Shown: positions 55,408 through 58,074 of the stretch, piece by piece
How the letters are laid out: each line of letters opens with the position of its first letter
How positions within the stretch are numbered: the stretch's first letter is position 1
From: Spirochaetia bacterium
GTDB taxonomy: Bacteria; Spirochaetota; Spirochaetia; CADAEX01
NCBI GenBank assembly: GCA_017446885.1
Contig: JAFSOR010000001.1
Span: 1-64,000, forward strand
DNA length: 64,000 bases
Direction of reading: 5' to 3'
The notes under the pieces: model-generated
The model's input: the letters and a program-made list of their open reading frames with translations, nothing else
Databases searched by the model: none
Told to the model about the DNA's origin: nothing
Program-made: the position numbers and the translations under genes

Positions 55408-55869
55408 TCATGCCTCCTCCCAAGAAAAATCCAGCTTGGCCTTTTTAATCTGGCTGTAAGGAATCTTTTTCTCGGTTTTTTCTATTGTTTTTATAATTAC
55501 ATTCTTTTCATCGGCCGACATTATGCAGCCATGAACCCATTCATTTTCTCCATCGCACAGAACTTTGACATTGCGCCCTGCAAACACAGCAAACTCATCA
55601 GCATGCTTAAAGTTGCGGTTTATTCCAGGCGATGAGACCTCGAAATAGACATCGCGGGTCTCGGAAGCCACCTCTGTGCGGGCAGCGGCCAGGCGGTGAA
55701 CTTTCTCGCAGTCCTTTACCGAAACACCGGCAGGTGAAAAGATTACCAGGCTTATGTGGATACCGTCCTGCCTTGAGGAAGCAGAAAGCTCCACTATAGA
55801 GAAGCCCAGACCCTCCACCACAGGAGAGAGCAGCTGGTAATATGTTCCGTTTTTATCTGCAAAATCCAT
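55408..55869 (-). CDS. rimP: ribosome maturation factor RimP
   Basis: 153 residues with the VSSPGINRNFKHADEFAVFAG core, typical of RimP, which acts in 30S assembly. It is the first gene of the rimP-nusA-infB operon. There is no good Shine-Dalgarno. A terminator-like hairpin ends about 11 bases upstream of its ATG. Confidence 0.92.
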   Translation of the reverse strand: MDFADKNGTYYQLLSPVVEGLGFSIVELSASSRQDGIHISLVIFSPAGVSVKDCEKVHRLAAARTEVASETRDVYFEVSSPGINRNFKHADEFAVFAGRNVKVLCDGENEWVHGCIMSADEKNVIIKTIEKTEKKIPYSQIKKAKLDFSWEEA

Positions 55870-55880
55870 AAAAAACCTAC

Positions 55881-55910
55881 AAAAAAAGGAGCCGCTTTTA
55901 CGGCTCCTTT
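55881..55910 (-). terminator. terminator-like hairpin in the rimP leader
   Basis: A 10-bp stem (55885-55894 with 55901-55910) with a six-base loop and a U run follows on the minus strand. It ends comF transcripts, but the rimP promoter lies upstream of it, so it also sits in the rimP leader and may act as an attenuator. Confidence 0.85.
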
Positions 55911-55937
55911 AATACCTAAAATATTAAAAGTTATCTT

Positions 55938-55966
55938 ATAATAGGAAAAAATAAAAAATTAATCAA
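55938..55966 (-). promoter_or_regulatory. promoter for the rimP-nusA-infB operon
   Basis: TTGATT (55966-55961) and TATTAT (55943-55938) are 17 bases apart on the minus strand. The -35 overlaps the end of comF. The predicted start near 55931 is upstream of the hairpin. Confidence 0.6.
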
Positions 55967-56666
55967 TAGCAAATGTGAGTATATCTATACTTTCACAGCC
56001 ATTTTCTTTAAGAATCCGTGCGCAGCTTGATGCAGTGGTTCCAGTGGTAAATACATCGTCCAGCAGGATTACATGCTTTCCCTGGCACAACACCTTGAAA
56101 TTATAGGCATCCCGAGGCCTGATATAGAGCTTGTCAACAAGCTCCTCTTTCCGCTCCTTTTTCCCAAGCTTTTTGAGCTGGCGCCCCTTTAGCCGCCGCA
56201 GCACGGCGGCAAAAGGGATGCCGTACACCCTTTTTAGAGCCCGGCACACCGCCTCCATGTGGTTGTACCCTGTCCTCTTAAGGCGGGCCGGGCTGCAGGG
56301 GGCTGGAACCAGAAGCACATTCTCAAGGCCCCTCCTGCGCAGGTAGCGGTATACAACCAGAGCCAGGAAGCGGCCTACCCTGCGCTGAGCCTTGAACTTG
56401 TACAGGCCTATCACAGTTTTAGCGGTTCCTTCGTAGTTCCAAAAGTAGTGGTTTGTATTAAAGTTATAATCCTCGCTGCGGCACCTCATGCATATTCCAT
56501 CCTCGGATATAAGAGGCTGGCCGCAGACACGGCAGCGCTCCCCTTCCTCTTTATGAAACAGCAGCGGGAATGCACACCTTCGGCATAGCCCGTACTTTTC
56601 GGAGAATGAGTCGCTGGTGCCGCACAAAAGGCAGCTCTGGTCAAAGATAAGCGAAAGTATGTTCAT
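55959..56666 (-). CDS. comF: ComF-family phosphoribosyltransferase-like protein
   Basis: 235 residues. Two N-terminal Cys pairs (CLLCG...CRRC and CRVCG...CMRC) form a double zinc site. The C-terminal PRTase fold has the PRPP loop VILLDDVFTTGTTAS. ComF supports DNA uptake in naturally competent bacteria and is widespread outside them; no other competence genes are seen here. GGGAGG precedes the ATG, which overlaps the stop of the upstream gene (ATGA). Confidence 0.88.
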   Translation of the reverse strand: MNILSLIFDQSCLLCGTSDSFSEKYGLCRRCAFPLLFHKEEGERCRVCGQPLISEDGICMRCRSEDYNFNTNHYFWNYEGTAKTVIGLYKFKAQRRVGRFLALVVYRYLRRRGLENVLLVPAPCSPARLKRTGYNHMEAVCRALKRVYGIPFAAVLRRLKGRQLKKLGKKERKEELVDKLYIRPRDAYNFKVLCQGKHVILLDDVFTTGTTASSCARILKENGCESIDILTFAID

Positions 56667-57316
56667 ACTTGCCTCCCAAGATTATTGTTGACAGAATACT
56701 GCAACTGGGGTATATTTTTATTAGAGTTAGTTGTGGATGATGTCAATGTGGTAGGACGCTTGCCCAAGGCAAGAGAGATTGCTGGTTCGACTCCAGCCCC
56801 AACTAACTCATAGTTTTTATTACACAACGCATTCAGCTCAACTTTTTTAATTGTGACAACAAAGTTACCCAATTTATCCTCATTGAAAATCAGAATATTC
56901 ACTTTTGAATTATCCTTTGAATCCAGTCGTATCAGCATAAATGTTCTATAACGTGTACCATTTTCCCTTATGGCATATGTACTCTTTCTTATCCAGTTAG
57001 GAATCTCTTTGTATTCTTCAATTCTGAAATTCTGTTTACTATGCTTTGATTTAGTAATGGGGTTTGTATGGGCAAACCTATGTTTAGTAAAATATAGATT
57101 CCCAATTATTCCAAGCTTTTTTCTGAGACTTTTCTTAATATTAGGCAGAAGAACTGCGTTAGGGATATCTTTGTAGTCAATACAAGAACTATAAAGTATA
57201 TCGACAATATGGTTAAAAGCTTTTTGTGATATTACTTTTAAATTTTTTATATCCTTTTCTACGAGTTCTTCTTTAAATTTGCCCTGATACAAAATATTAT
57301 TTTTTTCATTTTTCAT
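56663..57316 (-). CDS. unrecognised protein, possible BECR-fold nuclease, read into a tRNA relic
   Basis: 217 residues from ATG 57316 (MKNEKNNILYQG). No family is certain. The core (about 75-175) has NLYFTKHRFAH, IPNWIRKSTYAI and a run of beta strands. This pattern recalls phage-type BECR (Barnase-EndoU-ColicinE5/RelE-like) nucleases, a low-confidence guess. The last 45 or so residues (GAGVEPAISLALG onward) are antisense tRNA sequence, so the original stop was probably lost when the gene landed here. There is no Shine-Dalgarno; a -10-like TGTTAC ends six bases before ATG. It is much more AT-rich than its neighbours. Its stop overlaps comF. Confidence 0.6.
   Translation of the reverse strand: MKNEKNNILYQGKFKEELVEKDIKNLKVISQKAFNHIVDILYSSCIDYKDIPNAVLLPNIKKSLRKKLGIIGNLYFTKHRFAHTNPITKSKHSKQNFRIEEYKEIPNWIRKSTYAIRENGTRYRTFMLIRLDSKDNSKVNILIFNEDKLGNFVVTIKKVELNALCNKNYELVGAGVEPAISLALGKRPTTLTSSTTNSNKNIPQLQYSVNNNLGRQV
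56729..56805 (+). pseudogene. tRNA-Gly-like relic
   Basis: The T arm GCTGG-TTCGACT-CCAGC is perfect and the acceptor AGTTGTG pairs 6 of 7 with CCCAACT. CAATGTGGTAGGACGCTTGCC resembles the D/anticodon region of tRNA-Gly, with an expanded D arm. The anticodon loop has lost about three bases (CTTGCC-CAA-GGCAAG), removing the TCC or GCC anticodon. It is not expected to work as a tRNA. Confidence 0.6.
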
Positions 57317-57318
57317 AT

Positions 57319-57401
57319 CTAAGTAACACGATTTTTTTGCATTTTGCTTCAATTTCTGCTCAAAAATTTTCAAAAAATGTAAAAAAATTTGTAAATCTAT
57401 A
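57319..57401 (-). repeat. AT-rich leader element A
   Basis: This is a diverged copy of the leaders at 60351 and 61365. Reading toward the gene it carries TTGAAGCAAAAT and then GTGTTACTTAG with the same spacing as copy B. The gene start follows within a few bases. TTGAAG and TGTTAC are 18 bases apart and could be a promoter. Confidence 0.65.
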
Positions 57402-57417
57402 CATAGAAAGCCAATAA

Positions 57418-57439
57418 CAGGACTTCGCTCAGCAGAGTG
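57418..57439. repeat. 22-bp motif, copy 2
   Basis: An exact match to 58-79, located about 17 bases beyond the outer end of leader A. Confidence 0.85.
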
Positions 57440-57477
57440 GGTACCATATGAAAAAAAATTTTTACCTGTAGAATTAT

Positions 57478-57506
57478 TTGCGACATCAGGAAGAGTATGA
57501 TATATT
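57478..57506 (+). promoter_or_regulatory. promoter for gpx
   Basis: TTGCGA (57478-57483) and TATATT (57501-57506) are 17 bases apart, about 28 bases before the gpx start. Confidence 0.5.
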
Positions 57507-57534
57507 ATAGTTGAGAGCGAATAGGAGAATAGAA

Positions 57535-58074
57535 ATGATTTACGATTACACAATCACCACAAGAAAAGGCGAACAGCTTAGTCTTGCCGATTACAAGGGC
57601 AAGGTCATCATGGTGGTAAATACTGCAACAGGCTGCGGTTTTACACCTCAGTACGCACCTATCGAGCAGATGTACCGCGACTACCACGATAAGGGGCTTG
57701 AGATACTCGACATCCCCTGCAACCAGTTCGGTGCACAGGCTCCTGGGACAGACGATGAGATCCACGATTTCTGCACCATACACTTCAACACCACTTTCCC
57801 GCAGATGAAAAAATCAGATGTGAACGGCGCCAACGAACTGCCACTGTATACTTATCTTAAATCCCAGAAAGGCTTTGGGGGATTCGGCGAGCATCCGTAC
57901 AAGGCACTGCTTGAGAAAATGTTTGCAGAAAAAGATCCCGACTGGGACAAGAAGCCTGATATAAAATGGAACTTCACAAAGTTCATCATCGACCGCCAGG
58001 GAAATGTGGTTGCCAGGTTCGAGCCGACAGCTGACATGGCCGAGGTTGAAGCGTGCATCAAGGCGCTTCTGTAA
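57535..58074 (+). CDS. gpx: glutathione peroxidase-family thiol peroxidase
   Basis: 179 residues. The peroxidatic residue is Cys34 (ATGCGFTPQY), not selenocysteine. The rest of the catalytic tetrad is visible as Gln in FGAQAPG and Trp-Asn in KWNFTKF. Such enzymes usually use thioredoxin to reduce peroxides. The ATG at 57535 has AGGAG seven bases upstream; a TTG at 57511 is rejected. It is followed 15 bases later by an FTR-like protein, a plausible reducing partner. Confidence 0.92.
   Translation: MIYDYTITTRKGEQLSLADYKGKVIMVVNTATGCGFTPQYAPIEQMYRDYHDKGLEILDIPCNQFGAQAPGTDDEIHDFCTIHFNTTFPQMKKSDVNGANELPLYTYLKSQKGFGGFGEHPYKALLEKMFAEKDPDWDKKPDIKWNFTKFIIDRQGNVVARFEPTADMAEVEACIKALL

Follow-up and report, generated by a model that had tools for sequence, protein, structure and literature searches.

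In type III toxin–antitoxin systems (ToxIN, CptIN, and TenpIN), a small RNA neutralises an RNase. Here, we describe an RNase-like protein and a small tRNA-like element in a window of 64,000 nt (i.e., the whole stretch of DNA analysed; contig JAFSOR010000001.1 of assembly GCA_017446885.1, Spirochaetia bacterium, CADAEX01), in which an accessory minus-strand gene next to comF runs antisense through that element. To judge from the comparisons below, the element is almost certainly an RNA gene, and it is likely the partner of the nuclease-like protein; we give about an even chance to the two forming a toxin–antidote pair, in which the RNA would be a decoy antidote to a tRNA-attacking nuclease. Among described proteins, CdiA-CT Kp342 and its kin are presented, in the available part of PMC9071432, as BECR-fold enzymes that cut the acceptor regions of tRNAs, while a conserved His and Thr pair is described for the PBECR domains in the available part of PMC5512222.

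The tRNA-like RNA gene and its conserved fold

The block at 56724–56809 is identical at 83 of 86 positions to that of the same-genus genome G003, where the same accessory gene adjoins comF, as compared to 382/510 (74.9%) for the gene body, 202/267 (75.7%) for comF, and at most 71/86 for the best other 86-base stretch of either gene, suggesting that the block is constrained by something besides the protein. The initial annotation had seen that the open reading frame (ORF) runs antisense through a tRNA-like sequence and that its stop overlaps the comF start; the overlap is confirmed, and the comparison with G003 puts the element itself beyond chance. A covariance model of the RNA (R1), trained on 16 copies of which the window copy is one, scores that copy at 73.4 bits (56725–56808). 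The features of the locus are as follows:

56724–56809 (+): tRNA-mimic RNA gene, as indicated by the R1 score, covariation, and identity to G003
56688–56716 (+): promoter of the RNA gene, with −35 box TTGACA (56688–56693), 17-nt spacer, and −10 box TATATT (56711–56716)
56724–56733 (+): 5′ strand of an extended acceptor stem (10 bp), pairing with 56800–56809
56734–56736 (+): T bulge (56734) followed by GG (56735–56736) paired with CC (56798–56799), read from the sequence
56742–56757 (+): D arm (GTC/GAC) with loop AATGTGGTAG; G18 is 56750 and G19 is 56751
56759–56773 (+): 15-nt hairpin in the place of the anticodon arm, CTTGC-CCAAG-GCAAG, with a 3- or 5-nt loop and no anticodon
56781–56797 (+): perfect T arm, GCTGG-TTCGACT-CCAGC; T55 is 56787
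56814–56818 (+): T-run after the acceptor stem, a possible intrinsic terminator
56663–57316 (−): accessory gene of 217 aa, with ATG at 57316 and stop at 56663–56665
about 56828–57274 (−): RNase-like domain of the accessory gene, of probable BECR fold; the C-terminal tail is the RNA gene read antisense
55959–56666 (−): comF, whose start codon overlaps the stop of the accessory gene as ATGA

R1 matches 39 elements in Treponema and related genomes, in Helicobacter and Campylobacter phages, and in viral contigs; their alignment (A9; 37 distinct rows) includes 22 elements and one duplicate that R1 added to the protein-derived ones, while the sub-threshold matches L082, L122 4493–4566 (a tRNA according to ARAGORN), and L133 5190–5271 were left out. 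Among the 37 distinct rows, 85.0% of the cells are paired, as compared to 62.3% in shuffles, and in 25 of the 28 base pairs both partners have changed. Helix 1 (the acceptor) is 91.6% paired, with 10 of its 11 pairs changed on both sides, and helix 4 (the T arm) is 98.9% paired. The covariation score was 0.604 in A9, an alignment fitted to the R1 model itself, against 0.213 in shuffles and no more than 0.206 for slid structures; an unfitted MAFFT alignment of 16 sequences (A5) gave 0.542, against 0.200 and no more than 0.291, respectively. RNAalifold recovered the acceptor, D stem, and T arm from A9 (18 pairs). The bases at D-loop position 18 and T-loop position 55 are A/G in 19 and G/T in 18 of the 37 distinct rows, with no exception (0.999 bits; for L065, which has a gap in column 18, the base was taken from its shorter loop), and G19 and C56 are found in the loops of all 39 elements. 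On the nuclease tree, which has several long branches and partial support, the 18/55 state switches four times (3–4 in bootstraps), with two switches forced by well-supported branches; both states are also found in the two tandem elements of a single Treponema gene (L077). As far as can be read from these alignments, the coupling of positions 18 and 55 is the D/T elbow contact of tRNA.

The window element folds better than 200 of 200 shuffles (z −3.6) and contains GTGGTA in its D loop. ARAGORN called no tRNA in it, and the Rfam tRNA model RF00005 gave 16.7 bits (E of about 1 per genome) against a cut-off of 29. It encodes no CCA end, and the arm replacing the anticodon arm varies in length among copies: local folds of the 39 elements place a loop of 3 nt in 16, 4 nt in 10, 5 nt in 9, 6 nt in 3, and 8 nt in one, the window copy having 3 nt. 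In G003, the 5-bp stem of this hairpin is intact and all differences are confined to loop bases. A cmscan of 55500–58000 found no Rfam match in the element, and at E up to 1 there was no Rfam match in L083, L120, L065, L077, or L002. The only two cmscan hits lie at 55879–55954; the terminator-like stretch there (55879–55943, −; 3′ of rimP) resembles the small RNA STnc370 (34.7 bits; cut-off 54) and is probably just a terminator.

The promoter of the RNA gene is near-perfect for σ70 (11 of 12 consensus bases) and is the best of eight promoter-like sites in 56400–57600, where 4.2 are expected. With seven bases between the −10 box and the stem, its predicted start falls at about the first acceptor-stem base. 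G003 keeps the −35 box (6/6 identical) and has TATAGT as its −10 box, with only 6 of 17 positions identical in the stretch between them (56694–56710). Across the family, 24 of the 39 elements have a −10 box with at least five of the six TATAAT bases 3–12 bases upstream. We sorted 26 elements into class 1 (phage-type gene context, or standalone with a visible promoter) and 10, in two versions from the Treponema group and without a visible promoter, into class 2, with L131, L133, and L134 unassigned; this sorting made partial use of promoter visibility, so that class and promoter are not independent. Several of the 26 class 1 elements are close copies; of the 26, 24 pass for the −10 box (mean 3.4 and maximum 9 in dinucleotide shuffles of the same flanks) and 10 match at least five of six bases in both boxes (maximum 2 in shuffles). 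A T-run of at least four bases lies within 25 bases downstream of 27 of the 39 elements (a raw count, without shuffle comparison).

No σ70 promoter was seen upstream of the class 2 elements, and in all 10 of them 6–7 T follow the stem immediately. The class 2 loci (L122, L123, L124, L126–L130, and L132) share GCTTC just before the element and T6–7 just after it, and their neighbours are small unrelated genes (SLOG-like, phosphoesterase-like, and VapBC-like by eye). Close tandem pairs, with a −10 box for each element, occur among the 39 elements only in L077 (3455–3541 and 3599–3688; the same as the L119 locus) and L120 (4202–4288 and 4312–4403); in L120, each of the two RNA genes lies behind TATAAT, and no nuclease-domain match was found nearby. 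Copies among unrelated small genes, which could be islands, and tandem copies would fit a DNA-level recombination site, such as an attachment (att) site or cassette boundary, that is cloverleaf-shaped by chance. We consider this quite improbable, since a DNA site would need neither a promoter in register nor a coupling of T loop and D loop on one strand. The outer arms read GTT..AAC in many copies, which is the reverse of integron attC; an integron attC was rejected on this orientation.

In 200 Treponema-group genomes, R1 gave 22 matches of at least 51 bits in 16 genomes (five being training copies), the next match having 31.7 bits; one match below this gap is an ordinary tRNA. At E 1e-8, R1 matched 13 of the 392 genomes of the phylum sample, in 4 of 167 genera. 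A DNA pattern made from known copies matched 13 stretches in viral contigs, including seven elements (six distinct, five new); L144 and L147 were judged from their sequences to be the L138 and L083 elements, and L137, L140, L141, L143, L145, and L146 were judged to be chance or ordinary sequence, with no R1 match at E 1e-9 in the five of these other than L143. Neither an exact-motif scan of the viral contigs nor a blastn search of the element against phages gave anything useful.

These comparisons also bear on the origin of the element, which the initial annotation had taken for a decayed tRNA-Gly, short of its anticodon bases, left where mobile DNA had inserted. The gene is indeed accessory: in G002, G004, G005, and G006 (four of six same-genus relatives), comF directly follows its leader, without gene or element, and gene and RNA therefore form an accessory cassette, while G001 has another comF upstream region and an RNA copy elsewhere in its genome. 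Compared with four relatives, the gene is an insertion, which speaks for a relic, as does the likeness of the arm CTTGCC..CAAGGCAAG to that of tRNA-Gly(GCC). However, the stretches upstream of comF in these four empty-site relatives contain no tRNA-like sequence and no intact tRNA-Gly, and an intact tRNA-Gly(gcc) is present at another site in the host genome (L026); a blastn search of the element against the rest of that genome returned only a 15-base match. The best R1 score in the same-genus relatives lacking the cassette is 32.1 bits, on another contig than comF; this match (G004:C6:33967-34043) stands slightly above the other weak same-genus matches. Decay is also at odds with the absence of a 7-nt loop from all 39 elements, whose stems show compensating changes. 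An architecture that recurs with such changes in 37 distinct sequences and with a promoter in register makes a tRNA-Gly relic hardly credible, and we rejected it on finding the same form in homologues elsewhere, often behind a promoter, and copies outside any such gene. Nor does the tail stem from a stop lost here, as had been proposed, because homologues elsewhere read through their own copy or stop in or just before it. Conservation of the tail as protein for its own sake was likewise rejected: of the motifs that homologues have in common, GVEP/GVAP falls on the T arm and TTxNxNISQ on the −10 box, and in MuF homologues the coding sequence ends inside the element or shortly before it.

Association with a nuclease-like domain

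Early protein searches found Helicobacter prophages, a Campylobacter coli phage and plasmid copy, Treponema genomes, and G001, for a total of 17 loci, 16 with an RNA of at least 45 bits and one (L082) with a shortened copy; with one exception, these searches used queries or profiles containing all or part of the tail and were not blind to the RNA. Queries ending before the element confirmed the domain at all 17 loci (tblastn), with short alignments in G001 (L063; 65 aa) and G029 (L135; 20 aa). Because most early queries included the tail, a cleaner test was made with a domain-only profile (A11; 11 rows) ending before the RNA element. This profile matched five of 196 Treponema-group genomes and eight genomes of the 392-genome phylum sample (five clearly, at E 1.8e-22 or better, and three weakly). 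Pooled, the two samples hold eight clear genomes at E 1e-21 or better, five of which (G000, G381, G399, G464, and G608) are training rows of A11. The RNA adjoins the domain in seven of the eight (61.7–91.1 bits; two copies in G608), and the eighth, G631, has a shortened copy of 67 bases (29.7 bits) beside it; none of the three weak genomes has the RNA. The shortened copy, which we take to be that of L082 (3464–3530) from the same 29.7-bit match, has apparently lost its middle hairpin, and lies beside an intact domain with TTGACT and TATATT upstream. No RNA was found, at E up to 1, at L064, L075, L165, or L166, and we took these weak protein matches as chance.

Starting from the RNA, all six distinct phage loci found with the DNA pattern encode the domain (tblastn; five are new); the five submitted to Pfam (all but L149) are MuF proteins, and the nuclease stops just before or inside the element in five. 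At L142, 1.1 kb and two ORFs separate the RNA from the MuF gene. No match to the domain was found in a further 14 RNA loci of 4.8–11 kb each (L118, L120, L122–L124, and L126–L134), in a search that did not extend to MuF_C, and these loci keep the RNA fold; in L118, the frame containing the tail has only 122 codons. In the window and in the genes of polyvalent proteins, the RNA is complementary to the last part of the coding sequence, and in MuF phages it starts at or near the stop codon. This position would be expected of a type I-like cis-antisense regulator, which would block or destabilise the nuclease mRNA by pairing with its 3′ end and would need the tRNA fold for stability only. Such a regulator seems unlikely to us, as the RNA of L142 is remote from the MuF gene and the domain-less loci keep the fold; it would also explain neither the D/T-loop coupling nor the missing anticodon loop.

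The association is thus asymmetric: no clear member of the domain family seen lacks the RNA in full or shortened form, and the RNA is also present where the domain is not. Such asymmetry is usual for antidotes and immunity genes. The RNA could instead be a working part or guide of the nuclease (e.g., a scaffold, or a cofactor packaged with MuF) or a decoy for host tRNA nucleases directed at phages. Delivery by phages, as supposed for MuF and polyvalent proteins (PMC5512222, available part), would suit such roles, and a tRNA mimic could serve anti-defence; yet domain-less copies fit immunity better than a packaged cofactor, and the recurrence of one domain group with the RNA is more in keeping with a cognate partner than with a general decoy, so that we see only a small chance for either role. 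In L125 (4521–4613), the protein encoded opposite the RNA is of polyvalent type (1660 aa), and the RNA directly follows MuF_C (PF18819; E 1.2e-16) and not the domain of the window protein; MuF_C was sought in the Pfam runs only and was found solely in this locus. MuF_C is counted among the PBECR domains by Iyer 2017 (PMC5512222, available part). With the RNA beside MuF_C in L125, it may serve more than one type of nuclease.

The AlphaFold2 model of the window protein is fair (mean predicted local distance difference test score, pLDDT, 80.9), and that of the MuF-type domain reaches a pLDDT of only 60. Among the 10 structural matches listed for the window protein, eight are toxins, toxin–antitoxin entries, or HP0892 (Z 2.3–3.7, below the clear level of the tool). 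The top match (Z 3.7) is 6cp9 chain A, from a contact-dependent growth inhibition (CDI) toxin–immunity complex of Klebsiella pneumoniae 342, which we took to be the toxin from its residue numbering; RelE2, HigB2, RelE, BrnT, and HP0892 are among the others. CdiA-CT Kp342 apart, we presume these matches to share the BECR fold. Foldseek gave four matches against viral models (best E 1.1e-5). The 11 rows of A11, which combine polyvalent and MuF types, all have His67 and Thr136 (L071 numbering), and a His/Thr pair of the same kind is found in all nine rows of A8. From the model and these comparisons, the accessory gene domain is probably RNase-like with a BECR fold, and it may be an active tRNase. 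The window protein had no significant match in PHROGs or NCBIfam, PADLOC and PDB sequence searches gave weak hits only, and neither a single-sequence nuclease search nor a profile (A4) search of viral contigs gave anything useful.

A possible decoy antidote

What the sequence establishes is the anatomy of the RNA gene, the conservation of its fold, and the link to the domain; that the RNA is produced and that it inhibits the nuclease, we infer. A decoy antidote is favoured because the RNA copies the body of a tRNA and because the probable fold class of the domain includes tRNases that cut acceptors. The RNA would be a separately transcribed noncoding RNA of about 90 nt, convergent with (and here overlapping) a phage-type RNase-like domain, and would probably end at its own terminator. 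It would fold as a tRNA body with an extended acceptor stem and with D and T loops meeting in an elbow, and lack a normal anticodon loop. The nuclease would attack tRNAs, and the RNA would occupy its tRNA-binding site as a substrate that could not be properly cut, such that a cell or lysogen carrying the cassette would be immune. More broadly, and tentatively, as we see somewhat less than an even chance for it, a tRNA-cutting enzyme delivered by phages may be neutralised by an RNA that has the tRNA body and lacks the parts usable by the enzyme, with solitary bacterial copies providing immunity against such phages; the two would then represent a new class of pair.

Several observations weigh against the decoy antidote. 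With regard to the RNA, 15 of the 39 elements, including all 10 of class 2, lack a recognisable −10 box. The lowest-energy fold of the window RNA is a rod (−32.8 kcal/mol), favoured by 4.6 kcal/mol over the cloverleaf (−28.2 kcal/mol); the T arm is part of the single-sequence optimum in only 27 of 39 elements, and RNAalifold recovered only the T arm from the MAFFT alignment A5. ARAGORN can also draw three Helicobacter canis prophage copies as tRNA-Lys (ttt):

L066 947–1026: element called tRNA-Lys (ttt)
L066 3452–3531: element called tRNA-Lys (ttt)
L067 3470–3549: element called tRNA-Lys (ttt)

These three were the only elements called as tRNAs by ARAGORN over 30 loci, and the calls are likely mis-calls of the tRNA mimic. 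With regard to the protein, the structural Z scores are low, and the matches are thus support short of proof. Foldseek against the PDB gave no E below 0.001, and the window protein had no significant match in Pfam. None of nine proteins exceeded the Pfam PBECR3 cut-off of 30 bits; L077 (E 0.0024, 18.2 bits) and L148 (E 0.0035, 17.7 bits) fell below it, and the other seven were not listed. A distant domain relative in G246 (E 3.3e-6), encoded by an ORF among phage-like ORFs (by eye), has no RNA by R1 at E up to 1:

G246:C217 24765–25166 (L164): match to the domain, in contig coordinates

As this may be a true distant relative, the link between RNA and domain is not universal; on account of L164 and of the tail-bearing early queries, we slightly lowered the weight given both to the decoy antidote and to the broader tRNA-mimic toxin–antidote proposal. 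The overlap of the two genes would also allow plain antisense regulation. Finally, PBECR domains may spare the tRNA needed by the phage and target mRNA or CRISPR RNA, as suggested in the available part of Iyer 2017 (PMC5512222).

Relation to described systems

No such RNA was described in the titles and abstract openings among the literature matches listed, in a search with subscription papers and preprints mostly outside its coverage. For Campylobacter jejuni RM1221, an example of a strain with Mu-like prophages, the available part of PMC3656092 (dRNA-seq) refers to prophage start sites and not to the present RNA. If the decoy reading is true, the RNA would be an antidote that mimics the substrate of the toxin itself, a form not found in the literature searched. 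It would also explain misleading annotations, as the conserved protein tail with its “GVEP”- and “NISQ”-like motifs would be the reverse reading of an RNA gene with its promoter, and the ARAGORN tRNA-Lys calls on the three H. canis copies would follow in the same way.

As in type III toxin–antitoxin systems, a small RNA is here proposed, by analogy, to neutralise an RNase by binding. In contrast to those systems, the RNA is tRNA-shaped, has its own promoter, and lies on the opposite strand, where the nuclease gene ends or beyond it; it is usually single-copy (as in the window), with no tandem repeats upstream on the same strand, and the protein fold is probably BECR, the listed structure matches being mostly RelE-like with low Z scores. 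A D/T elbow on an RNA that does not decode is also found in transfer-messenger RNA (tmRNA), YrlA, and viral tRNA-like structures (TLS), but the present RNA has no Rfam match, and none of these RNAs is known to be linked to a nuclease gene. Phage tRNAs evading anticodon nucleases (PMC10264068, available part) are likewise a tRNA-related answer to the cleavage of tRNA in phages; there, the anticodon loop is mutated, while here it is absent. BECR tRNase toxins share the probable fold class and the proposed tRNA substrate, but the inhibitors given for them in the available part of PMC9071432 are proteins (i.e., CdiI), whereas the candidate inhibitor here is an RNA. With the PBECR domains of phage polyvalent and MuF proteins, as set out in the available part of PMC5512222, the window family shares location at MuF C-termini and in Helicobacter jhp1044-like mosaic proteins, a probable BECR-like fold, and the His and Thr pair; its match to PF18812 is below the cut-off. 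That part of the account mentions no RNA partner and suggests mRNA or CRISPR RNA as targets, which it leaves open; if the decoy reading is true, tRNA would be suggested as a target of such PBECR-like domains.

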